Origin: SAR86 cluster bacterium
GTDB lineage: Bacteria > Pseudomonadota > Gammaproteobacteria > Magnimaribacterales > Magnimaribacteraceae
Length of the DNA stretch: 64,000 nucleotides
Direction: 5' to 3'
Assembly: GCA_023703575.1 (NCBI GenBank)
Contig: CP097969.1
Span: 1,211,517-1,275,516, forward strand
Shown: piece by piece, positions 40,160 through 54,637 of the stretch
Position numbering within the stretch: position 1 is the first letter of the stretch
Layout: the number at the start of each line of letters is the position of its first letter
Made by a program: the position numbers and the translations under genes
The notes under the pieces: generated by a model
Database searches by the model: none
What the model saw: the letters and a program-made list of their open reading frames with translations, nothing else
Told to the model about the DNA's origin: nothing

Positions 40160-40235
40160 GCTGGCGTAGCTCAGTTGGTAGAGCAGCTGATTTGTAATCA
40201 GCAGGTCGTAGGTTCAAATCCTATCGCCAGCTCCA
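40160..40235 (+). tRNA. tRNA-Thr (TGT)
   Basis: 76 nt with encoded CCA: acceptor GCTGGCG/CGCCAGC, anticodon stem GCTGA/TCAGC with loop TTTGTAA, T-arm GTAGGTTCAAATCCTAT. It corresponds to thrU of enterobacteria but lies on the strand opposite to the tRNA-Tyr/tRNA-Thr/tuf genes. It starts 10 bp after the birA stop. Confidence 0.97.
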
Positions 40236-40257
40236 TATGTGATGGATAAAAGTTATT

Positions 40258-40635
40258 TTATTCTTCAATTAGGTTTTCTGCTTGAAGCAGAACTTCTTCG
40301 GGAAGACTGAAACTTTCTCTTTTTATATTCCAACTTTCAAATATTTGGTTAGTCATTAATTGAGAGTAAAGATGGGGAAAAGGACTCTTTCTTTTTCCTT
40401 CATTAGGAAGAGGAGATTCATAGATTAATTGAGTTTCATCTATCTTATCTAAATTTAATTGTAAGAGTTGAAGAGAGTCTGATTCCTTGAAGAAAAAAGC
40501 CAATGTGACAGCTAATTGAGCAGCAGTTGATAAATGGATGAATCCATCTTGCTTATCTAAAGCCGTAGTAATTTGACCGGATTCCTTAGCCTCTTCCCAT
40601 TCATATTCTCTTAATATTTTGTACACATTATTCAT
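40258..40635 (-). CDS. DUF952 family protein
   Basis: 125 residues from ATG at 40635 (MNNVYKILREYEWEEAKESG). It has the DUF952 signature: an YKI start, DGFIHLSTAAQL, and FPHLYSQL. Function is unknown; the family is small, cytosolic and scattered in bacteria. An in-frame ATG at 40692 would add 19 residues not expected in the family. It converges on tRNA-Thr(TGT) with 22 bp between and lies 83 bp after the M28-like gene, so it may or may not belong to that leftward unit. Confidence 0.75.
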   Translation of the reverse strand: MNNVYKILREYEWEEAKESGQITTALDKQDGFIHLSTAAQLAVTLAFFFKESDSLQLLQLNLDKIDETQLIYESPLPNEGKRKSPFPHLYSQLMTNQIFESWNIKRESFSLPEEVLLQAENLIEE

Positions 40636-40718
40636 GAAATCTATCTCAAATCTAATACCATAAATCTCGCTTTCAATAAGCGAAAAGCTCAAAAAAGCGA
40701 ATGAATAATAAAGGTTTC

Positions 40719-41981
40719 TTAATCAGTAGCATTAGCCATATTTATAATCATATTCGTCATAAAGGAATTAAGTTTGATCAACTTTTCCATATCTATAGAG
40801 TCTGGCCATGTATCATCTGGATGATGAAAAAGAGGATTGCTTCCGAGTAATGAAATAAATTGGCCACCTCCATCATAAATATTTCTTGCTTCTCCGAGTG
40901 GCCTAGATGATACAGGCCAAGATATAATTTCATCTAAGTCTAAAGCCTTAAGTTGCTCCAAGCCTTTTTCCATATATTCTTTTGTAGAGGCTTGCCATAA
41001 TACCTGACCTTCTTTGGCAGCAAAATTAGCTCCCAGATGAACCCATGAAAAAGCATCTTTAACTAATGACGAATTTTTTTCTAAAAAATGATCCAATCCC
41101 AGATGACTTAATTCATGCCCAGTATTTGCAGTAAATATTACATTGCGGTTGGGCTGATTTTTGGATAGATATCTCATTGCATTTAACCAAATAGTTATTC
41201 CACCTCCTCTTTCTGAAGTACAAGTCCACCAGCCACTCTTCGGTGTCATGACAACTAAGGGGCTAAGCAATTGATCTTTTCCTTCTATCTTAGTTTGAAC
41301 ATTTATGGCATCAGAATTTTCATCAATTAATTCAACAGATACGCTTATCTGTTCATCTGCTTTTAATCCCATGAGCCACTCTCCCTCTTGCGTCGCTACC
41401 TGTAGGATAGGTGGTCCATATGGTTTTCTATAAGATTCAGCATTTAGGACAGCAAGTCCTGGAATGTTAGGAAAAACATCTGCAATAGCCACAATTGCAG
41501 GATGTTTATTTTTCTCTCTCGCTTCATTTAGTTTTATAGACGACTCGTCGTTAGTTGAAGAGCCATATTTAGTTATTGCAATTACATCATCCGTATTTAA
41601 AGATCCATGCGGGCCTTTAATTCCATTCGAGGAAGTGCTTCCACCGTCAAACATGGGCAATCCAATTGCAGTATGAGTGCCATTTGTAACCTCGCATTTA
41701 CCAGGAGTTCGCTTAATAAAATTAAAGGTATCTACTTCTGCAGTAAGGCCACATTTATTTATCTCATCCGCTAACCAATAAGCAGTTTCATTATCACCTT
41801 TAGTGCCTGTTCTATGAAGCTTAATGGAATCCCACTTTATGAGATCCTCCTCTATATTTTTTTTTATATTACTCAATTTAAATTTAATTTCTTTGGAGCC
41901 TAAATCAAGGATCAATCCTACAGATAAAAAAGATAAAAATTTTAAGAAACTTCTTTTGGTTAAAAGAAGATTATTCTTCAT
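40719..41981 (-). CDS. Secreted M28 (Zn aminopeptidase)-like protein with degenerate metal site
   Basis: 420 residues. The N-terminus TKRSFLKF followed by a hydrophobic stretch resembles a twin-arginine signal with Lys-Arg in place of Arg-Arg. The middle and C-terminal parts resemble M28 peptidases: NRNVIFTANTGHELSHLGLD stands where families have the EE(x)GLLGS element, and NPLFHHPDDTWPDSID matches the late His region. The usual HxD and DD(N) ligand segments appear replaced by PKSGWW and ERGGG. Catalysis by the normal two-zinc site is therefore doubtful. Its start overlaps the MarR gene by 11 bp. Confidence 0.55.
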   Translation of the reverse strand: MKNNLLLTKRSFLKFLSFLSVGLILDLGSKEIKFKLSNIKKNIEEDLIKWDSIKLHRTGTKGDNETAYWLADEINKCGLTAEVDTFNFIKRTPGKCEVTNGTHTAIGLPMFDGGSTSSNGIKGPHGSLNTDDVIAITKYGSSTNDESSIKLNEAREKNKHPAIVAIADVFPNIPGLAVLNAESYRKPYGPPILQVATQEGEWLMGLKADEQISVSVELIDENSDAINVQTKIEGKDQLLSPLVVMTPKSGWWTCTSERGGGITIWLNAMRYLSKNQPNRNVIFTANTGHELSHLGLDHFLEKNSSLVKDAFSWVHLGANFAAKEGQVLWQASTKEYMEKGLEQLKALDLDEIISWPVSSRPLGEARNIYDGGGQFISLLGSNPLFHHPDDTWPDSIDMEKLIKLNSFMTNMIINMANATD

Positions 41982-42474
41982 TCAGATATTCTTCTGGCTC
42001 TTCATTTAAGCCGCCGTAATCTAAAATCGGTGCTGCGTCTATTTCTTCTGCATCTATAAATCTTGCTACCCTTTGTAAGCAGGATACGATCATGCTTTGC
42101 TCCCAGTCATTTAAGCTGGAAAATTGTTCTTTGAATTTATCTTGTAAAACATCTGGTGATGATTCAAGTATCTCCAGTCCTTCTTCTGTGATGTTCAAAT
42201 ATTGAATCCTTTTATCATTTATACCCTTCTCTCTTGTAATTAGATCTCTGGATAAAAGTTTATTGATGACCGTTGCAATGGTTGTATGTCTCAAAGTTGT
42301 TATGTATGAAATATTACTTGGTGTGGTGTGTTTCTTACTAGCAATGATCTGCAGAACAATGTGTTGCGTTGGGGTAAGCTGAGATTTTTTTGCTAAAGAC
42401 AATGAATTTATTTCAGTAGCCCTCATTACCCGCCTAATTGCGACTAGCGCTTCTTCTAGATGATTATCTTCCAT
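41971..42474 (-). CDS. MarR-family regulator, EctR/CosR-like
   Basis: 167 residues. A winged-helix MarR core (LTPTQHIVLQIIASKKHTTP, then INKLLSRDLITREKGINDKR) is followed by a C-terminal LNDWEQSMIVSCLQRVARFI and an acidic DAEEIDAAPIL segment. As recalled from the families, this C-terminus is typical of EctR/CosR-type MarR repressors, which control compatible-solute genes in halophilic and marine gammaproteobacteria. The gene overlaps the BCCT transporter upstream and the M28-like gene downstream by 11 bp each, so all three are translationally coupled. Assignment to the CosR branch is inference. Confidence 0.75.
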   Translation of the reverse strand: MEDNHLEEALVAIRRVMRATEINSLSLAKKSQLTPTQHIVLQIIASKKHTTPSNISYITTLRHTTIATVINKLLSRDLITREKGINDKRIQYLNITEEGLEILESSPDVLQDKFKEQFSSLNDWEQSMIVSCLQRVARFIDAEEIDAAPILDYGGLNEEPEEYLNEE

Positions 42475-44053
42475 GCAAATCTTCCATTTTTTTTGAATCG
42501 TATACTTCTATATAGACTCCTCGCAACAAACTCAATGTTGAAGCTATCAATATAAATACAAATGGCAATGCCATTGATATTGCACCCGACTGAATTGCTG
42601 ATAAAGCATAAGAACCTCCTCCAACCAATAACACTATCGCTATTAAGCCCTGAATTATTGCCCAGATTACTCTTTGTTTACTTGAATTATTATCTTGCCC
42701 TCCGGAAGTTATCGTATCAATGACCAAAGAGCCTGAATCAGATGAGGTCACAAAAAAGAGAACCAACATAAAGAGAGCAAATAAGCTTGTGAACGTGGGT
42801 AAGAATAAATTATCTAACATGTAAAAAAGTACGAGGGAAATATCGCTTACGGGCTCACTTAACCTACCTATTCCTTCTTCAAATTGAAAAATTGCTGCTC
42901 CACCAAATGAAGAAAACCAAATTAAATTGAATATTAGAGGTACAAACATGACTACAGTTAAAAATTCCCTAATCGTTCTTCCTTTAGAAATACGAGCAAT
43001 AAACATTCCTACAAAAGGAGACCAAGATATCCACCATGCCCAATAAAATATTGTCCAATCTTGATACCAATCTCTATCTTCAGGTCTATCCCAATTGCTA
43101 AGAAATACTATATCCTGAAAATATGCCATTAAATTTACTCCGTAAGAAGAGATTATTTGATAGGTTGGTCCTGCAAGAACTACAAAAAGTAGTAACAGTA
43201 TAGCCAAGGCTATATTTAAATTGCTTAAAATACGCACCCCTTTATCAAGGCCTCTATAAACAGAAAAAATTACTACTGAGGAAATAAAAATAATGACCAA
43301 AGATTGACTGACTAAATTATTAGGTAAATTGAATAAATAAAATAAACCTGAAGATGCTTGCTGTGCACCCAATCCTAGGGAAGTAGCTAAACCAAATAAA
43401 GTAGCCAAAACAGCTATTATGTCAATAAAGTCTCCTTGCCATCCCCAAATTTTATTACCAAGAAGGGGGAAAAATATTGAACGAATAGTTAAAGGTAATT
43501 TCCAGTTATAACAAAAGAACGCAAGTGACAGTCCTATGATTGCATAAACAGACCAACCATTTATTCCCCAGTGAAAAATTGTTGCGCTAAAAGCTAATCT
43601 CCGCGCTTCTTCAGTATCTGGAGTAATATTTAATGGCGTTCCAAAGACTCCAGTGTAGTAAGAAAGAGGTTCAGCAGCTCCATAAAAAGTCATTCCTATA
43701 CCCACACCCGCCGCGAATAACATGCAAATCCATGATAAAAAACTAAATTCTGGAGATGTATCTTTTCCACCGAGTTTAATCTTTCCGAAAGGGGATACAA
43801 TTAAAAAGAAAATTATGAAGGTAAAAGACAACATTGAAACTGTAAATAAAGTATCAAACTGACTGACAACAAATTGTCTGCTATTTGAAAGAAAGGTATT
43901 TGAAGCTTCTGGGAAAATTAATACCAAACAAGAAAAAAGAATTGCCAACCCAGAGCTGATTAAGAAAACAGGAAAATTGACATCTAAACCTAAAAATTTT
44001 TTCTTCTTAGGTCCTATTATAGAAGTTGAGGCATTATTTAAATTTTGATTCAT
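42464..44053 (-). CDS. BCCT-family betaine/choline/carnitine-type transporter
   Basis: 529 residues, twelve predicted membrane helices. It carries the BCCT signature around WTIFYWAWWISWSPFVGMF with following ISKGRTIREF, plus the Gly-rich GLATSLGLGAQQASSG helix. Family members import betaine, choline, carnitine, ectoine or DMSP with Na+ or H+. The Trp-rich substrate box (WAWWISW) is present; the substrate cannot be fixed from sequence. It follows the TPR-sulfotransferase by 8 bp and overlaps the MarR regulator, pointing to osmotic control. Confidence 0.92.
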   Translation of the reverse strand: MNQNLNNASTSIIGPKKKKFLGLDVNFPVFLISSGLAILFSCLVLIFPEASNTFLSNSRQFVVSQFDTLFTVSMLSFTFIIFFLIVSPFGKIKLGGKDTSPEFSFLSWICMLFAAGVGIGMTFYGAAEPLSYYTGVFGTPLNITPDTEEARRLAFSATIFHWGINGWSVYAIIGLSLAFFCYNWKLPLTIRSIFFPLLGNKIWGWQGDFIDIIAVLATLFGLATSLGLGAQQASSGLFYLFNLPNNLVSQSLVIIFISSVVIFSVYRGLDKGVRILSNLNIALAILLLLFVVLAGPTYQIISSYGVNLMAYFQDIVFLSNWDRPEDRDWYQDWTIFYWAWWISWSPFVGMFIARISKGRTIREFLTVVMFVPLIFNLIWFSSFGGAAIFQFEEGIGRLSEPVSDISLVLFYMLDNLFLPTFTSLFALFMLVLFFVTSSDSGSLVIDTITSGGQDNNSSKQRVIWAIIQGLIAIVLLVGGGSYALSAIQSGAISMALPFVFILIASTLSLLRGVYIEVYDSKKMEDLHGR

Positions 44054-44061
44054 ATAATCCT

Positions 44062-46092
44062 CTATTGAGTGATATGTGCAATATCTTCTGACTTAAGAAG
44101 ATCTTGATCTAGAGTTTTAACTAGTGGCTTTAAATATTTAGCATAAGGCTTCCATCTACCCATACCTTCTTTGTTTACAGGTTTTCTGACTTGCTCGGAA
44201 CTAGCAGTCCTTACTGATCTCTCAGTTTCATAAAAGGAAATACATTCCTCTTCAAAAGGTAACTCAAGAAATTCAAGGATGTTGGAAACTTGTCCCTCAA
44301 GATCTTCTACTACATCTTCATTATTTACTCTCAGTATCTTGCCCGGAAGAACAGAATCCCAATGATTCATAAGTTTGATATAACTATTATAGTAGCTTCC
44401 AGCTTCCTCAAGTCCGTATGTAAACTCTTGTCCCTGTGCAAAAAGTTGTTTAAACATACTGAAACAACAGTCGAGAGGATATCTTCTTGCATCAATAATT
44501 TTTGCATTTGGCATGATCAAATGAATTAATCCAATGTGCCTGAAATTATTGGGCATTTTATCTGTAAAAAAAGGAGCATCTTTTCTGTGCATCCTTGTAT
44601 CTTCAATGAAGTTTCTACCTAATTCTTTTCTTTGATTAAGATTAAGGGATTTCATACTTTTTGGATAATTGCCAAATTTTCCATAAATATCATCACCTCT
44701 TAGACTTTGTGCAATTGAGAGGATATTTGGAAGTTCCAATGTACCATCTATCATCGAGTGTGATGCTAAGATCTGCTCTATCAAGGTGGATCCCGCTCTA
44801 GGCAAACCTAGTATAAATATCGGATCTTTAGTTTGATATCCTCCGTCGCCTAAATCTTTGAAAAAGGAATCATCACATACATCTATTTGAGCATTTAATT
44901 CATTGTCCATTCTTTCAATAGAATATTGACTTTGATCTCTCTTAATTTGATTGCCTCTTACTAAATGATGAAAGGCTTCCTCAAATTCACCATTTACTTC
45001 GCATCCTTGAGCTAGAGCGAAATGAAAATAAGCTTTATCTCTCAATGATAAATCTACTCTCATAACTTGACTCCTCATTTCGTCTAATTCTTTTTTAGTG
45101 AATGCATAAGTCTTTAGATTCGATAAGGAAAAATATGCTTCACCATGATCTGGTTTAACTTTATAGGAAGACTTGTAACTTTTAATTGCTTGCTCAGTCC
45201 TACCCAGTGTTTTTTCAGCATGCCCTCTGGAAGTCAAAACACTAAAGTTAAAAGGGTTTTTATCTAATATATCATTTAGCAAGCTAATAGCTTCTTCGTG
45301 GCCACCATTTTGCATTATTTCACTAGCCTTTTGTGCTTGATAATTTAAATTATCAGGATATTGATCACATAAAATATCGACCTGTTCTATGGTTTTAGAA
45401 AACTTTTGTTTTTTTCTTAGGATGCCAGCATATTTAAGCCTTAAATCGCCATCATCTGGTTTAAATTCAACAGCCTTCTCAAGCAAGAATTCAGCATCAT
45501 CAAAATAACCTAGTCTATTAGCTATTTCAGCAAGCAAAGACATTGCATAAGTATGAGTTGGATTTTGTTTAAGGAAAGCTCTGCATTTTGTTTCAGCTAA
45601 CCCTAATCTTCCTTCATTAAGAATCTGGTCTATATATAAGAGTGGACCTGGTAAAGATTTTAATTTTTCTATCTGGCTAGAAGCGTGATCAGCTGCTGGT
45701 TGATTATTATTTTTTAGGAAGTATTGATAAAGAAAATTCCATGAAGCAAGTAGTGCAGGATTGAGCTCACATGCCTGCCTGTAGTGGTTAACCGCCTTCT
45801 CTTCATTGCCCATGTCTCTATAAAGATGGGCAAGTTCTTGATAAGCGCGGCCCATATCGGGAGCATTAACTAGCAGTTGCTCAATATATTTTTTTGATTC
45901 CTCAAATTTTCTTAAATATCTTGCTGAAACACTTGCGAGATACAAGCAATCAATATTTTTGGGATGTTCTTTAAGTACTATAGATAATAAATTATAAGCA
46001 TCCTGAAAACGGCTTTCTTTAACTGCCTGAGTTGCATCGTTCAAATCAATTGCAAAAGAAGTATCGTCAGTACTGAATTTATGTTCATCCAT
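44062..46092 (-). CDS. TPR-repeat protein with C-terminal sulfotransferase domain
   Basis: 676 residues. About 10-400 is a row of TPR helices (NPALLASWNFLYQYFLKNN, KPDHGEAYFSLSNL). About 425-670 is a Sulfotransfer_3-type domain. Its 5'-phosphosulfate loop is LGLPRAGSTLIEQILASHS; the 3'-phosphate region contains FTDKMPNNFRHIGL and ARRYPLDCCFSMF. It would move sulfate from PAPS to an unknown acceptor. There is no signal peptide. It heads the set with the BCCT transporter, MarR regulator and M28-like protein. No Shine-Dalgarno is seen before its ATG. Confidence 0.85.
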   Translation of the reverse strand: MDEHKFSTDDTSFAIDLNDATQAVKESRFQDAYNLLSIVLKEHPKNIDCLYLASVSARYLRKFEESKKYIEQLLVNAPDMGRAYQELAHLYRDMGNEEKAVNHYRQACELNPALLASWNFLYQYFLKNNNQPAADHASSQIEKLKSLPGPLLYIDQILNEGRLGLAETKCRAFLKQNPTHTYAMSLLAEIANRLGYFDDAEFLLEKAVEFKPDDGDLRLKYAGILRKKQKFSKTIEQVDILCDQYPDNLNYQAQKASEIMQNGGHEEAISLLNDILDKNPFNFSVLTSRGHAEKTLGRTEQAIKSYKSSYKVKPDHGEAYFSLSNLKTYAFTKKELDEMRSQVMRVDLSLRDKAYFHFALAQGCEVNGEFEEAFHHLVRGNQIKRDQSQYSIERMDNELNAQIDVCDDSFFKDLGDGGYQTKDPIFILGLPRAGSTLIEQILASHSMIDGTLELPNILSIAQSLRGDDIYGKFGNYPKSMKSLNLNQRKELGRNFIEDTRMHRKDAPFFTDKMPNNFRHIGLIHLIMPNAKIIDARRYPLDCCFSMFKQLFAQGQEFTYGLEEAGSYYNSYIKLMNHWDSVLPGKILRVNNEDVVEDLEGQVSNILEFLELPFEEECISFYETERSVRTASSEQVRKPVNKEGMGRWKPYAKYLKPLVKTLDQDLLKSEDIAHITQ

Positions 46093-46134
46093 ATTTTTTT
46101 ATGATTTCAAATTCCATTATTTTAATTTGATTAA

Positions 46135-46163
46135 GAAACAAAAAGGGAGCATTTGCTCCCTTT
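46135..46163 (-). terminator. Rho-independent terminator of the TonB-receptor gene
   Basis: Minus strand GGGAGCA-AA-TGCTCCC, a perfect 7-bp stem with a very short loop, followed by TTTTTGTTT. It begins 20 nt after the receptor stop codon and isolates it from the sulfotransferase gene. It is the clearest terminator in the window. Confidence 0.88.
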
Positions 46164-46183
46164 CATTATAGGTATATAAGATA

Positions 46184-48781
46184 CTAATAATTAAGCTTAA
46201 ATCTTAAACCAACCGTCATAGGCCTAATAACTGCTACTCTTTGTCTATCAAAAACATAATTATTGCTTATTTCAGCTCTTTCATCAGAGATATTATCAAC
46301 ATAAATCTCAGCTACCCAAGAATCATTACTGATACCTGCCCTTAGGTTTGCATAACTATAACTATCCTGTTTAGCTTTGTTGGGTTCAATAATATCTGAA
46401 TAACTTTTGTCAGAGGCAACAACTTGACCTTGTATGTGACCCTGCATGCCCGAAGACATTCCCCACTCGTATCTTGCTGCAACATTGGCTTGAATACCTG
46501 GAGCAAAAGCTAATTCTTCTCCAGCCTTAACATCACTAGTTGTCAATGATTTCTTTATTTCAGTATCTAAGAACGAGAAAGCTCCTGAGATTATGAGTCC
46601 ATCTGTGTTTGTATAATAAAGAAAGTCTCCCTCCAAACCGGTAATATCGGCATCTGCAGCATTATCTGAAAAGAATAAATTTGCAATACTGGGATCGAAA
46701 ATTGTCGTTTGAAGTCCAGAAATATCCACCATAAATACACTTCCATTAAATCTTAATCGACCATCTTGTAAAACTGTCTTCCAACCAAATTCGTAATTTG
46801 TAACTTCATCTGAATCAGTTACTGGTCTAACAGTGTATGACCCATCTGGTGTTGATTGTCCTGCTGGTCGATTTAATAAGCCTGGTCTAAAACCTTCTGA
46901 CCACGTCACATAGTACATTACATCATTAGAAACATTCCAAGAGAGTGTAGCCTTACCTATAACCCCATCAGACTCGGCCTTATCAGGATAATTCAATTCA
47001 TCAATAAATGGATTACCTGTAACAACCCCCGGCTCATTAAATGCTGCAGATAAATTAGTGCCAAACCTTTGTTGGTCACCTCCGCCAAATCCGGTACTGA
47101 ATGATGAATTTGCACTTCCTTCCAAATCAACCTCTATATCATACCAACGAGCTCCAAGAGTAAGCTCAATAGAATCAGATAGATCAATGGCCAGTTCACC
47201 AAAGACACCCTTTTGTTTATCAGTTCTCTTTATATCATTAATAAACATAACGGGCGGCATATAAGGTCCTCTTCCGGAGTGCCAACCAGCAGCTGCGTAT
47301 TGTTTTGACTTGAGGGCTCCCTTTGATAAAAGAGCTTGATAACCATAGACCGATGTATCGGTAAGGGCATAGTTCACTCCCCAACCTATATCACTCTCGA
47401 CTGCACCAGGATAAGTGAACATGTTATGTTCTAGCAATTCAAGATCGCTCATGAATGCACCAGCAGTTAAACTCATATTATCGCTTATAGGCGCGTTTAT
47501 TCTTACTTCATGAGTTTGCACCTCTGTATCTGTTACAGAATCCACAAACATATCTGGTGCTGGGCAAGATCCAGTAGGCACATTTCCGGGAGCATATGTA
47601 GTATAAGTAACATAGTAATCACAAATGTAATAAGGAAGATATTGGCCTACAAAAAGATAATCAGTGTAGTCAATTATTTGATCTGAGTGACGATCTGTGT
47701 AAGCTCCAGCATAGACAACTTCAAGATCGCCAATAGAACCCTCGATTGTCAAGCTGGTATTGTCATATTTATCTTCAAGATGATCATCGTGATATCTTTG
47801 AATCTCAAGATCTCCTAAAGTTGGATCAGTAAAAAACACTCCATCGGATTCAATTGATTGATGAGAACGCGAAACAAGAGCATCCCAATTCTCATTTAAC
47901 TCTTGAGCAAAGCTTAATCTAAAACCTTCATACTCAACATCATTAATATCCTCTTCAACTATTGCATTAGCTTTGGCAAAAGTTACACCAGATAAATCAT
48001 CTCCAGCTTGAAAACCGTTTCTAGCAGCAGAAACCGGCAATCCATTACTCCTTACAGTCCCTGATGCCCTAAAACGAGCGGATTCACTTGCATCAATAGA
48101 GCCTGCTACTTGATCAATATAACCACCTCTTCTGTCTCTATATGCAACTAATCTTGCAGCAGAGGTTTCTCCAATCGGCATATTAGTAACGAATTCAAGT
48201 TTTCCTCCATTAGCGCCCTCTGACATATACCTAGATTCAACTTCAATATTTGTTTCACTTACACCTATCACGGGCTTATTTGTAATCATTCTAACTACGC
48301 CAGCTTGTGAGCTAGCGCCAAAAAGTGTTCCTTGAGGTCCTTTTAAGACTTCTATGCGGCTGATGTCTGCTGCATAAACATCCAGATTTCTACCTGGTTG
48401 GGCTAAGGGTTGCTCATCAAGATAAAATGATACATTTGGGGCCAAACCACCAACACCTGCTGTTGTGAGATTAGGGGTTGTTGAGGCCAGACCTCTGATA
48501 TAAATAGTACTTGTTCCTGGACCAGCTCCACCTGCTGTAACGCTAGGAAGCTGGAGTAAGTAATCTTCAAAAACATTTACGCCCAGTTCTTCAAGAGAGC
48601 TCTCTCGTAGAGCTGAAACAGACAAAGGTACGTCTTGTAAACTTTCTGCTTTTTTCCTTGCAGTAACAACAATTTCTTCCAGAGCATCTTGAGCCAAAAC
48701 ATAGCCACCGAATGCAGATGCGTTTAACAAAATAAGAGTTGAAAGATAAAAGCTTAACTTTTCACGAATTTTCCCGAACAT
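46184..48781 (-). CDS. TonB-dependent outer-membrane receptor
   Basis: 865 residues from ATG at 48781, preceded by GGGGAGA at good spacing; an ATG five codons upstream overlaps that site. It has a signal peptide ending near LAQ, then the TonB box EEIVVTAR, a plug domain (about 50-165, RIEVLKGPQGTLFGASSQAG), and a 22-strand-type barrel ending in an aromatic-rich strand (MTVGLRFKLNY). The substrate is unknown; plug and barrel resemble the broad class used for siderophores, vitamins or plant-type phenolics and terpenoids in marine bacteria. Single transcription unit with its own terminator. Confidence 0.93.
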   Translation of the reverse strand: MFGKIREKLSFYLSTLILLNASAFGGYVLAQDALEEIVVTARKKAESLQDVPLSVSALRESSLEELGVNVFEDYLLQLPSVTAGGAGPGTSTIYIRGLASTTPNLTTAGVGGLAPNVSFYLDEQPLAQPGRNLDVYAADISRIEVLKGPQGTLFGASSQAGVVRMITNKPVIGVSETNIEVESRYMSEGANGGKLEFVTNMPIGETSAARLVAYRDRRGGYIDQVAGSIDASESARFRASGTVRSNGLPVSAARNGFQAGDDLSGVTFAKANAIVEEDINDVEYEGFRLSFAQELNENWDALVSRSHQSIESDGVFFTDPTLGDLEIQRYHDDHLEDKYDNTSLTIEGSIGDLEVVYAGAYTDRHSDQIIDYTDYLFVGQYLPYYICDYYVTYTTYAPGNVPTGSCPAPDMFVDSVTDTEVQTHEVRINAPISDNMSLTAGAFMSDLELLEHNMFTYPGAVESDIGWGVNYALTDTSVYGYQALLSKGALKSKQYAAAGWHSGRGPYMPPVMFINDIKRTDKQKGVFGELAIDLSDSIELTLGARWYDIEVDLEGSANSSFSTGFGGGDQQRFGTNLSAAFNEPGVVTGNPFIDELNYPDKAESDGVIGKATLSWNVSNDVMYYVTWSEGFRPGLLNRPAGQSTPDGSYTVRPVTDSDEVTNYEFGWKTVLQDGRLRFNGSVFMVDISGLQTTIFDPSIANLFFSDNAADADITGLEGDFLYYTNTDGLIISGAFSFLDTEIKKSLTTSDVKAGEELAFAPGIQANVAARYEWGMSSGMQGHIQGQVVASDKSYSDIIEPNKAKQDSYSYANLRAGISNDSWVAEIYVDNISDERAEISNNYVFDRQRVAVIRPMTVGLRFKLNY

Positions 48782-48794
48782 TGTAGGTCTCCCC

Positions 48795-48814
48795 ATTAAG
48801 CAAACATGCTTAAT
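48795..48814. repeat. Perfect inverted repeat just upstream of the TonB-receptor start
   Basis: ATTAAGC (48795-48801), AAACAT, GCTTAAT (48808-48814). It lies 14-33 bp before the chosen start codon and next to the Shine-Dalgarno. It could be an operator or an mRNA hairpin limiting ribosome access. Confidence 0.5.
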
Positions 48815-48938
48815 TAATTTAGATTACTACGTAAAGTGTAGTATAAGGCAAAATATAATCAAGTGATGGATTGGTGCTTCTTTTTAAATGTCAACCTTTT
48901 CGTTTATTTTCCTTAATGATGGCCATTTGTAACCTTAA

Positions 48939-49076
48939 TCACTGATAGATTAGGAAAAGTAGCAGCGGAAGAATAAAAACTGCACCCAGAATTGTGATAA
49001 TTTTACTCGGCTTCAACGCCACTATAAGGCAGATAAGAAATATAAAAATAGCAGCAATGAAAGATGAAATTTCCAT
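48939..49076 (-). CDS. Small two-helix membrane protein (45 residues)
   Basis: Starts MEISSFIAAIFIFLICLIVA, has a short polar turn (LKPSK), then a second hydrophobic helix and ends LLFLIYQ. An AAGGA-type site lies 8 nt before the ATG, and the ATG is 2 nt after the stop of the VOC gene, so it looks translationally coupled as the last gene of that operon. No family is recognised. Length and amino-acid pattern favour a real gene, but it is below the size where coding can be certain. Confidence 0.6.
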   Translation of the reverse strand: MEISSFIAAIFIFLICLIVALKPSKIITILGAVFILPLLLFLIYQ

Positions 49077-49078
49077 GG

Positions 49079-49999
49079 TTATTCCTTTTCTATAAGCCTA
49101 GTGAGTAAATTACCCTTCATGCATGAATCAATATAAGCCATTTTTTTATCATCAGAAACTTTGAGTATTTGCGTACCTTTAATTTTGAGTAAATCCATTT
49201 CTGTTTTCAGATCAGAAACCTTAAATATCATTTCTGCCACGCCATCACCTCGTTGTGCTAATGAATTTCCATAAATGCTGTCTTTTTCGGCCTGTATCAA
49301 TTCAAAAACTATATCACTTACATAGAATTCTTGAGAGGTTATTTTCCATTCTTTTCTGGCCTTCTTTTCTTCAATTTTCTTAAAACCTAGTTTCGAGTAA
49401 TAACCAGAAGCAGAATCCAAATCATTAACACATATTCCTAGTCCTAAAAATTTCCATTTATTCACTAGAGGATGCGATTCATTATTTTTTCGCCAAGATT
49501 TTTCCCAATTATCTGCCGGTGGTCTCAAAGAAATCATTAAATCTCCATGTAATCTAGTATCTATGTAGTTTTCTACAGTTTTGCCATTTGTTGTAACGTT
49601 AAAAACGAGATCACAACCTCGATCTAAAAAGAATTGAGTATCTCTTTCAATGTCTGCCGTATTAAAAGCTATGTGATTAATTCCATCACCTTTCGTCTCA
49701 AGATATCTGCTAATGAACATGCCGGGTCCGGGTCGCATGGGATAAACTTCAAGCTGACAATTTCCAATTTGTGATTGACCATCTTTGAAGTTATGCGCTC
49801 CCCCAGTTACGAATCTATGAGTGACAGGTTCACCGTCCAGCTCTTTAAAAAAAGTTATTTCTCCTTCGCCTTCTATATATGGCAATAGAGGTTGAGGTCC
49901 TACGCTAACTCCAAGTCCGATAGACTGATAATAGCTCAATATTTCATCTCGATCTGTGACCATCATTCCAAGATGATTAAACTCCCAATTATGCATCAT
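49079..49999 (-). CDS. Two-module VOC (glyoxalase/extradiol-dioxygenase fold) protein
   Basis: 306 residues, two tandem VOC modules (about 5-165 and 180-304). Module 1 keeps candidate metal ligands His9 (NHLGMMV), Glu84 (QLEVYP) and His109 (GINHIAF), but the last position reads LMISLRPP without Glu. Module 2 has lost the first His (FLGLGICV) and second His (AEMIF). Only module 1 could therefore bind metal, and incompletely. The start overlaps the SDR stop (ATGATG/TGA). The reaction is unknown; the neighbours suggest a step on an acyl-CoA or small oxygenated substrate. Confidence 0.75.
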   Translation of the reverse strand: MMHNWEFNHLGMMVTDRDEILSYYQSIGLGVSVGPQPLLPYIEGEGEITFFKELDGEPVTHRFVTGGAHNFKDGQSQIGNCQLEVYPMRPGPGMFISRYLETKGDGINHIAFNTADIERDTQFFLDRGCDLVFNVTTNGKTVENYIDTRLHGDLMISLRPPADNWEKSWRKNNESHPLVNKWKFLGLGICVNDLDSASGYYSKLGFKKIEEKKARKEWKITSQEFYVSDIVFELIQAEKDSIYGNSLAQRGDGVAEMIFKVSDLKTEMDLLKIKGTQILKVSDDKKMAYIDSCMKGNLLTRLIEKE

Positions 50000-50826
50000 G
50001 CCATGTATCCACCATCGACATTTAAGATAGTGCCATTCACATAACTAGACGCATCAGATGCGAGAAAAACAGCCGCATTCGCCATTTCATTAAAGGTAGC
50101 AACACGTCCTAAAGGAATATTTTCCGGTCCATTAGACCATGCTTCAAATTTCTCTTTTTCAGTTATTTCTTTTTTTACTTCTTCATTGTTTGTAGTTTTA
50201 TTTTCTCTATTTTCTTGGCCTGGAAATTCTTCCCACTCGACTAAAGAGGGTGCAATGGCATTTACTCTTATGTTATGAGGTCCAAGATATCTTGCATACT
50301 GTCTTGTCATCATTGCTATACCTGATTTAACTATTGCATAATTTCCCATAGCTTTATCAGCATGAGCCTTAAGTCCGCCTCTCGAAGTCAAGTTTATTAT
50401 GCTTCCACTTTTTTGCTTCTTCATTATTGGAGCTACTTCCTGAATAGTGAGCCAGTAACCCTTCAAATTCACACTACTAAGCATATCCCAACTTTCTTCA
50501 TCTAAATCCACAACAGATTTCATGTGATACATGACAGCTACATTCATCAAAATATCGATACCTCCAAATTCCTGCATAACCTGATCAACCATGTTTTTTA
50601 CATCAGGCTGAGAAGAAATATCTGTCTTGATGCAGATAGACTGCCTGTTCATAGCTTTAATTTCTTTACAAACTGAATCAAGCTGACCAGATTCGATGTT
50701 TAGATCTGTGACAGCAACATCGGCCCCTGCTTCAGCTAGTCCAAGGGCAAAACCCTTCCCCATATTTCTTCTTGCACCTATGACTAAAGCCTTTTTACCT
50801 TTTAATGAAAATTCTGATAGAGACAT
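49996..50826 (-). CDS. Short-chain dehydrogenase/reductase
   Basis: 276 residues, Rossmann fold. The cofactor loop is VIGARRNMGKG (15-25, Asn where Gly is usual), the Asp after the second strand (TDLN) favours NAD(H), and NVAVMY fills the NNAG position. The Ser (NLTSRGG) and YAIVK catalytic motifs are present, and the C-terminus DGGYMA is typical. A polar insertion rich in Glu/Asn/Lys (about 205-225) lies in the substrate loop. Located between the acyl-CoA ligase (28 bp) and the VOC gene (overlap). The substrate is unknown. Confidence 0.9.
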   Translation of the reverse strand: MSLSEFSLKGKKALVIGARRNMGKGFALGLAEAGADVAVTDLNIESGQLDSVCKEIKAMNRQSICIKTDISSQPDVKNMVDQVMQEFGGIDILMNVAVMYHMKSVVDLDEESWDMLSSVNLKGYWLTIQEVAPIMKKQKSGSIINLTSRGGLKAHADKAMGNYAIVKSGIAMMTRQYARYLGPHNIRVNAIAPSLVEWEEFPGQENRENKTTNNEEVKKEITEKEKFEAWSNGPENIPLGRVATFNEMANAAVFLASDASSYVNGTILNVDGGYMA

Positions 50827-50854
50827 AAAATAATTAAATTTCTATATGTTGATA

Positions 50855-52399
50855 CTAAGAAATAGCTGGAGCATCTGTCCCAAGAAGATCATCTCTTAAG
50901 TTTCTTTTTAAGACTTTACCAGTAGCATTTCGGGGTAAAGCATCTATAAATTTCACTGAATTTGGAACTTTAAACTTTGCGAGGTTTTTTAGGCAATGTT
51001 CTATGATGTCTTTTTCTTCTAGTGTTTGTTCTGATTTGAGGCTGATAAACGCTATACCTGTCTCACCCCATCTATTGTCTGGTACACCAATAATTGCTGC
51101 CTCAGCAATTTCAGGTAGTTGGTAAAGAACATTTTCAACTTCAGCTGGATAAACATTTTCTCCTCCGGATATATACATATCTTTCCAACGATCTACGATA
51201 TATATAAATCCTTCCTCATCGAATCTTGCAGCATCACCAGTTTTCAGCCAATCGCCTTCGAAAGAATTCAGTGTTGCTTCTTCATTATTCCAGTAACCTG
51301 GTGTGATATTTGGACCTCTTATATAAAGCTCCCCTACCTCTCCCCAAGGAAGCTCCTGTCCTTCATCGTCAACTACTTTGACTTCTGTATGCAAAAGTGG
51401 CTTTCCTGCTGAGCCTAACTTTCTTTCAGCATCTTCAGCGGGAAGTCCTATACCTCCAGGACTTGTCTCAGTCATACCCCAGCCCTGAATCATAGAAACG
51501 CCTCTATCTGACCAGGTTCTGAGTATTGCCTCAGCGCATGGAGCACCACCTACTCCTGCAACTTTCAGACTTGATAAATCAGTGCTATCAAAATCAGGAT
51601 GATTCATCATGAATTGATAAGGGGCTGGAACTGCAAAAAAATGAGATACCTGAAATTCGGGATTTCCAAGAATTGATAATGCTAAGCCAGGATCAAAATC
51701 TCTTATAAGAATTAATTCCCCACCTGCATGCAAAACAGGATTTGCATAACAGTTCATACCGCCGGTATGAAAAAGAGGTAAAACTACTAGCTGAACAGTA
51801 TCTGAAGATACAAATGCAGGTGAGGCAAGATTGATTACATTATAAAGTTGCATTTGATGATTTATCATCGCCCCTTTTGGGTGACCAGTTGTACCAGATG
51901 TATACATAATCATTATCAAATCTTCTTGTGTAATTTCCGGTTGATCATAATCAAAACTGGAGTCCTTTAGAGTAATTTCATACTGACTATTTAAATCCTC
52001 TTTATCAATCTCTAAATGACTAGATATATTGCAATCTTTTACTAATTCGTTTGAGATATCGGAAAAAGATTCATCATAGATAAGAACTTTAGGCGAGCTG
52101 TCATTAAGAATATATTCCAGTTCGGGCTTTGTTAATCTCCAGTTTAAGGGAAGTTCTATAGCTCCTATCTTTGCACAGGCAAATTCTAATTCAAAAAATT
52201 CTGCACAATTCTGAGATAAAATTGCAATCCTATCTCCCTTTTTTACTCCCACACTTTGCAACCAATTTGCCAGAAGACATGCCCTATCATCAAGCTCTTT
52301 GTAAGTTAAAGTTTGTTTTGAGCTCAGGTCACGAATCGCTATCTTTGTTGGTCTTACGTAAGCGTGGTAAGCAGACCAATCATAATGTTTGACAGACAT
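50855..52399 (-). CDS. Acyl/aryl-CoA ligase (ANL superfamily)
   Basis: 514 residues. The AMP-binding loop is MYTSGTTGHPKGAM; GWGMTETS and WLKTGDAARFDEEGFIYIVD follow, then the hinge RWKDMYISGGENVYPAEVE and the C-terminal catalytic Lys in PRNATGKVLKRNL. It activates a carboxylic acid as acyl-AMP, then CoA thioester. Resemblance is to medium/long-chain or cyclic-acid ligases. First enzyme of the ligase-SDR-VOC operon. Acid specificity is not readable. Confidence 0.92.
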   Translation of the reverse strand: MSVKHYDWSAYHAYVRPTKIAIRDLSSKQTLTYKELDDRACLLANWLQSVGVKKGDRIAILSQNCAEFFELEFACAKIGAIELPLNWRLTKPELEYILNDSSPKVLIYDESFSDISNELVKDCNISSHLEIDKEDLNSQYEITLKDSSFDYDQPEITQEDLIMIMYTSGTTGHPKGAMINHQMQLYNVINLASPAFVSSDTVQLVVLPLFHTGGMNCYANPVLHAGGELILIRDFDPGLALSILGNPEFQVSHFFAVPAPYQFMMNHPDFDSTDLSSLKVAGVGGAPCAEAILRTWSDRGVSMIQGWGMTETSPGGIGLPAEDAERKLGSAGKPLLHTEVKVVDDEGQELPWGEVGELYIRGPNITPGYWNNEEATLNSFEGDWLKTGDAARFDEEGFIYIVDRWKDMYISGGENVYPAEVENVLYQLPEIAEAAIIGVPDNRWGETGIAFISLKSEQTLEEKDIIEHCLKNLAKFKVPNSVKFIDALPRNATGKVLKRNLRDDLLGTDAPAIS

Positions 52400-52411
52400 A
52401 AATTTCCCCAG

Positions 52412-52570
52412 TTATAAAAAAACAACCATGAATAAGTAGAATACTATTACTGCTCCCCAAATATTTAATAAGAAACCAATTCTTCTTCCAACTTGTTCTC
52501 CTTTCGAATATTGCCAAAGAAAGAATAGAAGACTTATAAATACTAGAGAAATAATAATTCCAATATGCAT
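52412..52570 (-). CDS. Small two-helix membrane protein (52 residues)
   Basis: Starts MHIGIIISLVFISLLFFLWQ, then a basic turn (KGEQVGRRIG), and a second helix NIWGAVIVFYLFMVVFL to the stop. Basic residues between two hydrophobic helices suggest a hairpin in the inner membrane. Its stop is 12 bp before the ligase start. A 65-codon reading frame on the same strand overlaps it but has no family-like or membrane pattern. There is no good Shine-Dalgarno, so the start is tentative. No family is recognised. Confidence 0.5.
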   Translation of the reverse strand: MHIGIIISLVFISLLFFLWQYSKGEQVGRRIGFLLNIWGAVIVFYLFMVVFL

Positions 52571-52699
52571 AGCGCAACTTTAATAGCTAAGTTATTAGCA
52601 AGCAACCCAGTCCTAATACAAAAATCACTCTCATGAGACTTAATGATTTAAAATACTTAAGTAGGCTTTCAGCAAAATATTTAAAAAATAATCCATCCA

Positions 52700-54637
52700 T
52701 TGAATAAATCATATAAACAAATCCCTAAAGCACTTAGAGGAATTGTCAAGAAATCTAATAAATCGAGAGGATTTTATGTTGAAGATTCAAAATATGATTC
52801 CCAATTTAAACTTGGAAAGAAAGAACTCTTTAAAGCAATGCCTGGAGACTTAGTTCAATTTTCTCTTACTCAAAAAGGTTGGGCAAAAATAGATGAAGTT
52901 ATTACAGAAAATACAAGTGAATTTATTGGGAAGATATTTAGAAGGGGCAAAAGGTTATACACAAGTCCCATGGGTTACGAAAATGATTTAAGGGTTTTAA
53001 TCAAAGAGCCTCATCCAAAATCGATAAAAGATGGTGGCATCGGTAAATTTTTAATGCATAAACAACCTAGTCAGGAAGCCCTACCTGAAGCAAATCTTAT
53101 TTCTTTATTCGATTTAGATAATGAATTTAGTTTGGCATATGAGGTGGCTGTCACTAATCATAATCTTAAACGTGAGTGGCCTAAGGCAGTAATTAATGAA
53201 TCAAGAAAGTTAAAAGATAAGAATTTTGATATTGAATCCGTAAAAGATCTCAGAAGTAAAACTTTTGTAACTATAGATGGAAAAAGCGCAAAAGACTTTG
53301 ATGATGCTGTGCTTGGAGAGCAGGATGAACATGGAGATCTTAATTTATACGTAGCAATAGCCGATGTTGCACGTTATGTAGATCAAGGAAGTCATCTAGA
53401 TAATGAAGCTTTTGATAGAGGAACCTCAGTTTATTTTTCGCAAAGAGTAATTCCTATGTTGCCAGAGGAATTAAGTAATGACTTGTGTTCATTAAAGCCT
53501 GATGAGGATAGATTCTGTATAGTTTGTAAAACTACTGTCACTAAAGATGGAAATCTCACAGATACTTCTTTCTTTGAAGCAATAATCAATTCTAAATCTA
53601 GATTGACTTACCCTGCAGTTACGCGGGAAATTGAGAAAAAACAGTTTAAAAAGCCCTATGCAGATTCTTTAAGAGTTCTATTAAGAATTTATAGAAGATT
53701 AAAGAAAAATAGAGTTGAAAGGGGTTCTTTAGAGCTCGAGGTACCAACATACATCCCCAAGGTAGAGAATCAAAAAATTGTAAAATTTATTGATTCCCCA
53801 AGAGAGATTTCTCATATGATGATAGAAGAATTCATGTTAGCTGCAAATATATCAGCTGCTCAATTATGTTTGAAACATAAAATGCCTTCTGTTTTCAGAG
53901 TTCACCCAAAGCCAGATATATTAAAAATTAAAACTCTTGAAAAGTTTTTAAGGAGTAGAAAGATTAATGCTTCTTTAGATGATGGTAGCGACATAAAAAA
54001 ATTAACATCTCTTACTGAAATAGCTAAGGATAGAAAAGATAAGAGCATCATTCACTCGCAAATTTTATATTCCATGAGCTTAGCTACTTACGAGACTGAT
54101 GTTGCGATCCACTTTGCCCTTAATTACTCTCACTATTCTCATTTCACTTCTCCAATAAGAAGGTATCCTGATTTACTTGTTCATAGAGCAATAAAATCTC
54201 TAATAAAATCTAATAATGGAAATATTACAATAGCTGAAAATCCCATAAAGACTAAACCTGTTTATAGCCACGACCAGTTAATAGAGTTGGCAAAAATTTG
54301 TTCTATAAAGGAAAGAGTTGCTGAACAAGCTGAAAGAGAAGCCCTTAATCACCTGAAGTGTGCTTTTGCTTCTGAGCATATTGGAAATACTTTTAATGGT
54401 CAGATAATTGGTGTTACTAATTTTGGTCTATTTATTCATTTAAAAGAGATAAATATTGAAGGTCTCTGCCATATAAAGTATTTACCGCGCAATGAGTATT
54501 ATGTATTCGATGAAGATAGTAAAATGTTACAGAGCAATAGCTCAAGACACTCATACTCTCTTGGAGACGAGGTTAAAGCAACGATTGAAAAAGTGGAAGT
54601 CTTCTCTCAGAAAATAGATCTTAGATTAGTTAAATGA
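52700..54637 (+). CDS. rnr: Exoribonuclease, RNase R/RNase II family
   Basis: 645 residues. The start is a TTG at 52700 without a clear Shine-Dalgarno; the first internal ATG (residue 46) would cut into the cold-shock fold. Order: one or two CSD-like OB folds (1-150), the RNB domain with Asp193, Asp199, Asp201 and Asp202 (DGKSAKDFDDA), and a C-terminal S1 domain (about 560-645). It degrades RNA 3' to 5'. It lacks the N-terminal helix-turn-helix and Lys-rich tail of E. coli RNase R (813). Its partner rlmB follows with a 4-bp overlap, as in E. coli. Confidence 0.9.
   Translation: MNKSYKQIPKALRGIVKKSNKSRGFYVEDSKYDSQFKLGKKELFKAMPGDLVQFSLTQKGWAKIDEVITENTSEFIGKIFRRGKRLYTSPMGYENDLRVLIKEPHPKSIKDGGIGKFLMHKQPSQEALPEANLISLFDLDNEFSLAYEVAVTNHNLKREWPKAVINESRKLKDKNFDIESVKDLRSKTFVTIDGKSAKDFDDAVLGEQDEHGDLNLYVAIADVARYVDQGSHLDNEAFDRGTSVYFSQRVIPMLPEELSNDLCSLKPDEDRFCIVCKTTVTKDGNLTDTSFFEAIINSKSRLTYPAVTREIEKKQFKKPYADSLRVLLRIYRRLKKNRVERGSLELEVPTYIPKVENQKIVKFIDSPREISHMMIEEFMLAANISAAQLCLKHKMPSVFRVHPKPDILKIKTLEKFLRSRKINASLDDGSDIKKLTSLTEIAKDRKDKSIIHSQILYSMSLATYETDVAIHFALNYSHYSHFTSPIRRYPDLLVHRAIKSLIKSNNGNITIAENPIKTKPVYSHDQLIELAKICSIKERVAEQAEREALNHLKCAFASEHIGNTFNGQIIGVTNFGLFIHLKEINIEGLCHIKYLPRNEYYVFDEDSKMLQSNSSRHSYSLGDEVKATIEKVEVFSQKIDLRLVK

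Follow-up and report, generated by a model that had tools for sequence, protein, structure and literature searches.

Two conserved small hydrophobic proteins at the ends of an acyl-CoA ligase operon in a SAR86 cluster bacterium

We analyzed a 64,000-nucleotide stretch of the genome of a SAR86 cluster bacterium (contig CP097969.1, positions 1,211,517 to 1,275,516; hereafter the window), in which an acyl-coenzyme A (acyl-CoA) ligase, a short-chain dehydrogenase/reductase (SDR) and a two-module vicinal oxygen chelate (VOC) protein are encoded between two very small hydrophobic proteins, which we call smA and smB. Both small frames are coding and conserved, and smA immediately precedes the ligase in every genome of its family in which we found the ligase. 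For smA, the likeliest single role, which we propose tentatively and at less than an even chance, is that of a membrane-side docking partner of the ligase.

All five genes lie on the minus strand and are read leftward in the order smA (52412..52570, 52 aa), ligase (50855..52399, 514 aa), SDR (49996..50826, 276 aa), VOC protein (49079..49999, 306 aa) and smB (48939..49076, 45 aa). Spacing is tight: 12 nt separate smA from the ligase and 28 nt the ligase from the SDR, the SDR and VOC frames overlap by 4 nt, and smB starts 2 nt past the VOC stop. A first-pass annotation, made from the sequence alone, had described a leftward enzyme operon of this layout and spacing, ended by proteins of 52 and 45 residues, and the frames confirm it; Pfam also agrees with the names it gave to all three enzymes. 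The ligase matches AMP-binding (E 5.1e-96; 322 bits against a cut-off of 29.9) and AMP-binding_C (1.3e-20; 74.5 bits against 24.5), the domains that place it in the ANL superfamily. The SDR matches adh_short_C2 (9.3e-56; 189.5 bits against 27), and the VOC protein, of the glyoxalase fold, matches Glyoxalase_4 and Glyoxalase, with matches in each of its halves.

To assess conservation, we used 202 genomes of the order, the counts being given as 35 in the window's own family and 168 searched in other families. smA was matched in 29 of the 35 family genomes, across five genera, and smB in 14 of the 35, all in the window's own genus; none of the listed matches contains an internal stop. The 168 genomes searched outside the family yielded no smA. 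When genome contigs were scanned with the smA profile, 28 loci came up, 22 of them titled SAR86 and 6 titled Gammaproteobacteria. In 30 fetched loci (29 genomes), smA adjoins a divergent homologue of the rnr frame (52700..54637, plus strand), which we take to encode RNase R. Six family genomes have no smA. Because four of these (G012, G015, G018 and G027) have no rnr match at E 1e-30 either, the region is probably unassembled there; in G009 and G016, rnr is present and smA is missing. smB occurs in all 14 genomes of the window's genus whose contig extends past the VOC position, the contigs of G019, G031 and G033 stopping earlier. The smB of G026 has a one-base frameshift in a run of T, which may be an assembly error.

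Selection on the small frames was measured by the ratio of nonsynonymous to synonymous substitution rates (dN/dS). Median values are 0.044 for smA (20 loci) and 0.169 for smB (12 loci), alongside 0.039 for the ligase (17), 0.055 for the SDR (15), 0.105 for the VOC protein (13), 0.048 for the TonB-dependent receptor beyond smB (8) and 0.122 for rnr (18); the constraint on smA matches that on the ligase. These samples cover 20 of the 30 smA loci and 12 of the 14 smB loci (G020 and the frameshifted G026 were omitted), and the enzyme sets comprise full-length frames from the smA set only. Control frames on the same DNA gave 0.73-2.64 when shifted in the sense direction and 0.16-3.63 in antisense. 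The lowest antisense values (0.16 for smA and 0.31 for smB) belong to the frame that shares third positions with the true frame, and are expected because these positions are common to both. In the alignments (19 of the 30 smA loci and 12 of the 14 smB loci), 14 residues of smA are invariant across its 19 sequences, W19, G24, E25 and W38 among them. We consider it nearly certain that smA and smB are both real proteins. By the terms that the first-pass annotation set for itself, its reading would fail if the small frames were unconserved, evolved at a dN/dS near 1 or occurred in this genome only; the relatives and the dN/dS values show otherwise on all three counts.

Neither protein matched Pfam, NCBIfam or PHROGs at E 0.001, or PADLOC at 0.01. 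The best weak matches of smA were to MtrG (0.017, under the cut-off for smA itself; 0.0019 in one other member) and to a PHROG (0.09). PDB sequence searches with the smA and smB profiles returned no match at E 10, profile comparison revealed no relation between the two proteins, and in viral contigs none of the 71 and 600 pattern stretches encodes a relative. An AlphaFold2 model of smA built from 19 sequences predicts helices at residues 2-22 and 27-51, with a mean predicted local distance difference test score (pLDDT) of 77.9 and a predicted template modelling score (pTM) of 0.44; for smB, the hydrophobic stretches were located by a hydropathy scan. The only charged residues of smA are K23, E25, R29 and R30, and those of smB are E2, K22 and K25. 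Under the positive-inside rule, basic loops face the cytoplasm. Given the short basic loop of each, smA and smB are probably inner-membrane proteins in which a cytoplasmic loop connects two hydrophobic helices.

At E 1e-130, the ligase was detected in 56 of the 202 genomes, namely 27 of the window's family, all with smA, and 29 of two other families. In each of the 27, smA is directly upstream of the ligase (which is split into two frames in G001), and the gap, measured in 13 loci, is 10-76 nt. Behind the ligase, gene content differs between genomes. Many relatives encode two further proteins between the ligase and the SDR, namely a glutathione transferase and one that carries a linalool dehydratase/isomerase domain (PF18566, 8.8e-12); both are missing at the locus in G022, G024 and the window's genome. 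In other genera, the locus encodes luciferase-like and GNAT proteins, or one that matches NIPSNAP weakly, under the Pfam cut-off.

These comparisons bear on the first-pass proposal that smA and smB form a matched pair serving one pathway, perhaps connected with the ligand of the adjacent TonB receptor. The proposal survives insofar as both proteins are conserved and coding and smA is syntenic with the ligase. The data do not support the pairing itself: five genera have smA and one has smB, the intervening genes vary, smA persists without the ligase, and smB is retained in G020 and G034 without the SDR and VOC genes at the locus. The bracketing is thus partly an accident of a shuffled island, in which smA occurs widely and keeps its place at the rnr edge, and smB is bound to one genus. 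As for the receptor (46184..48796, minus strand; Pfam Plug and TonB_dep_Rec_b-barrel), it follows smB in 12 of the 14 genomes of the window's genus, but it stands beside the operon in none of the six genomes of other genera in which the operon end is visible (G001, G005, G007, G008, G013 and G014).

We propose the following scheme for the operon. The ligase would make the CoA thioester of an organic acid, on which the SDR and the VOC enzyme would then act. The ligase, soluble by itself, would be held by the loop of smA at the inner membrane, the site at which a hydrophobic acid would arrive, and smB would be a later addition at the level of the genus. What argues for docking is that all 27 family genomes with the ligase keep smA in place in front of it while the genes behind it turn over, and that smA and the ligase are under like constraint. 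None of the seven other AMP-binding ligases of the window's genome has a hydrophobic frame of less than 100 aa adjoining it.

A useful comparison is FadD13, which, together with a fatty-acyl/feruloyl-CoA synthetase, is the best match of the ligase among PDB sequences (PDB 3r44, 330 bits). Parts of PMC8253482 describe FadD13 as a peripheral-membrane acyl-CoA synthetase that is partly membrane-bound via an arginine-rich patch. The two proteins belong to the same superfamily, but at the eight patch positions aligned to FadD13 the ligase has no arginine; nor has any of the 27 family orthologues or 13 others, with scattered lysines at some positions. The lack of FadD13-like arginines leaves room for docking by smA, and is not proof of it. 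A bolder version, in which smA is a dedicated integral-membrane dock that replaces a FadD13-style patch, hydrophobic acids are trapped at the inner membrane and smB serves the VOC step likewise, appears unlikely to us.

Several observations weigh against docking. Two genomes, G004 and G026, retain smA without the ligase. In G026, smA is followed by the SDR, the stretch from ligase to SDR being gone; around both start codons the sequence is the same (TTTATGTCT), the trace expected of a deletion between short repeats. In G004, the interval between rnr and the tRNA holds nothing besides smA but a 22-codon frame before the tRNA. The smA of G004 is nevertheless 84-86% identical to its relatives in the genus, with 7, 9 and 10 replacement changes compared to 3.5, 9.5 and 10 among the relatives' own pairs, and so gives no sign of decay. 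In addition, smA was undetected in all 29 ligase-bearing genomes of the two other families, and the 13 of these loci that were read show none either. The missing patch fails as a pointer to smA, because the 13 orthologues without smA have no patch either. We also dropped the idea of an acidic ligase meeting the basic loop, since 5 of the 7 other ligases in the genome are about as acidic.

The persistence of smA in G004 and G026, together with the sister families that carry the ligase without smA, favours the alternative that smA is an independent inner-membrane microprotein (e.g., a regulator or stabilizer of a larger complex) at the rnr edge, behind which the enzymes were added so as to share its promoter. 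Against this, the family has no genome with the ligase and without smA, smA is absent from the genomes searched in other families, and G004 and G026 may have lost the ligase only recently. Because the smA of G004 does not look decayed without a ligase, we give an independent role and docking the same tentative weight. AcrZ of E. coli, which binds AcrB (PMC7267776), offers a parallel in that a short membrane protein is under selection and may have a larger partner; smA differs in having two helices, no sequence match and a partner that is putative. A literature search combining small membrane proteins, acyl-CoA synthetases and operons gave no match.

Three other explanations fare less well. It seems rather improbable that smA, and smB with it, are uptake helpers, as the first-pass annotation also suggested, which would help a hydrophobic acid to cross or leave the inner membrane and pass it to the ligase; the acid might be what the TonB receptor binds. 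The position beside the ligase and, in most genomes of the genus, beside the receptor fits this idea, but the six genomes of other genera with a visible operon end have smA and no receptor there, and a hairpin of 52 aa would hardly have space for a channel without oligomerizing. A translated leader peptide that regulates the operon is considerably less probable still: smA is indeed the first gene, with a candidate promoter just upstream, but its 52 residues, low dN/dS and invariant positions point to a working protein. Finally, AT-rich DNA often yields short hydrophobic frames, and the window's list contains many unsupported ones of similar length, but conservation in many genomes and dN/dS values far under those of the sense-shifted frames lead us to reject chance open frames as a practically negligible explanation for both.

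The candidate promoter (52577..52605, minus strand) was picked by eye from an upstream alignment of 28 loci and consists of TTGCTT (52605-52600), a spacer of 17 nt and TAAAGT (52582-52577). Since it would be so near the smA start, the smA message may be nearly leaderless in the window's genus. In another genus (g2), the same kind of reading by eye places AAGGAG, which resembles a ribosome site, ahead of a TTG start. The window belongs to a genome that is a single contig of 1,591,815 bases, and its own G+C content is 36.7%.

Further arrangements of the locus can be mentioned. A single frame of 728 aa joins ligase and glutathione transferase in G021 (L083 4146-6332), a hint of either a functional link or a lost stop. 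The PF18566 protein at L067 6338-7999 has 553 aa and is placed after the glutathione transferase; a literature search for SAR86 and linalool dehydratase gave no match. Contig 14 of G014 has two inverted copies of the smA-ligase region (L085 and L086) and an rnr that is broken, apparently an artefact of assembly or amplification. A sister genus encodes a hydrophobic protein of 87 aa (L176 7507-7770; L209-L228), whose family has matches in 54 of the 202 genomes at E 0.01, many of them weak. We rejected it as convergent support, since it is directly upstream of the ligase in just 5 of the 20 loci read and adjoins other genes in 15; profile comparison showed no relation to smA.

The VOC protein resists a more specific name. 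Residues H9, E84 and H109 of module 1, candidate metal ligands by analogy with the VOC family, do not vary among 14 sequences; module 2 has diverged further. The structural model has a mean pLDDT of 78.2, with segments below 50. Among the 50 fold matches listed, the best were hydroxymandelate synthase and 4-hydroxyphenylpyruvate dioxygenase (HPPD), with TM-scores of 0.52-0.63 at 11-16% identity. These enzymes share the two-module VOC fold and differ in that the candidate metal ligands here are in module 1. Despite the fold match, identity as HPPD was rejected at 35.5 bits against an NCBIfam cut-off of 277, as was methylmalonyl-CoA epimerase (51.7 bits against 114.95).

The whole block lies in a variable slot of 12,464 bases (40236..52699) between tRNA-Thr(UGU) and rnr. 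The tRNA was located with ARAGORN (40160..40235, plus strand; anticodon tgt) and adjoins what is presumably a biotin-ligase-like gene. The remainder of the slot in the window (40258-44053) codes for a DUF952 protein, a BCCT transporter, a MarR-like regulator and a protein that weakly matches peptidase M28. Both edges lie on one contig in 19 family genomes, where the slot ranges from 88 bases (G016) to 18,439 (G030), with 352 in G004; such variable content beside a tRNA is that of a tRNA-anchored island. Of these 19 slots, 17 contain smA; the two without it are those of G009 and G016. Within the slot, stretches of 46-58 nt repeat the tRNA 3' half in G024, G028, G030 and, twice, in G009 (L233 335-383; L235 1543-1591; L229 2622-2679; L237 1861-1909 and 2627-2672), which suggests insertion at the end of the tRNA. 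No tRNA fragment was detected at E 0.001 in the window's genome, where the intact tRNA stands alone. A shared end motif beside three of the copies (at most 2 mismatches) occurs once each in only 4 of the 202 genomes (G021, G024, G028 and G030); copies and motif together hint at small cassettes that enter at this tRNA. The G030 cassette, between the tRNA fragment and tRNA-Thr, encodes a 1299-aa DEAD-box helicase (L235 2258-6157, minus strand) with zinc-ribbon and DUF559 matches; judging from its PADLOC matches to DpdF (1.4e-78) and PsyrT (2e-60), it may be a defence gene.

Variable islands anchored at tRNAs have been described before in aquatic bacteria. As outlined in part of PMC10872708, Methylophilaceae have tRNA-anchored flexible islands, including an additive island with repeats of the last 20 tRNA bases, as well as tycheposons, whose elements contain a tyrosine recombinase. 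The slot described here is similarly bounded by a tRNA, with tRNA 3'-half copies in four relatives. It differs in that no recombinase was found among the slot proteins given to Pfam (part of the slot genes) and that the window's own genome has no tRNA fragment.

SAR86 bacteria are among the most abundant in the surface ocean, and a first isolate was reported in 2024 (parts of PMC11582366). The same parts report that beta-oxidation genes are present in high copy number and that catabolism of aromatics and steroids is widespread, and hypothesize a role of glutathione transferases with hydrophobic compounds; the main text has no word starting with "acyl-CoA" or "hypothetical". Such a catabolic background would suit an operon for a hydrophobic acid. 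The slot between tRNA-Thr and rnr illustrates how such operons are gained and lost. Two microproteins that are under selection, match no searched family library and sit at genes for acid activation offer a concrete way into the question of how streamlined cells deal with hydrophobic substrates. If docking by smA is true, it would be a simple means of placing a metabolic enzyme at the membrane.

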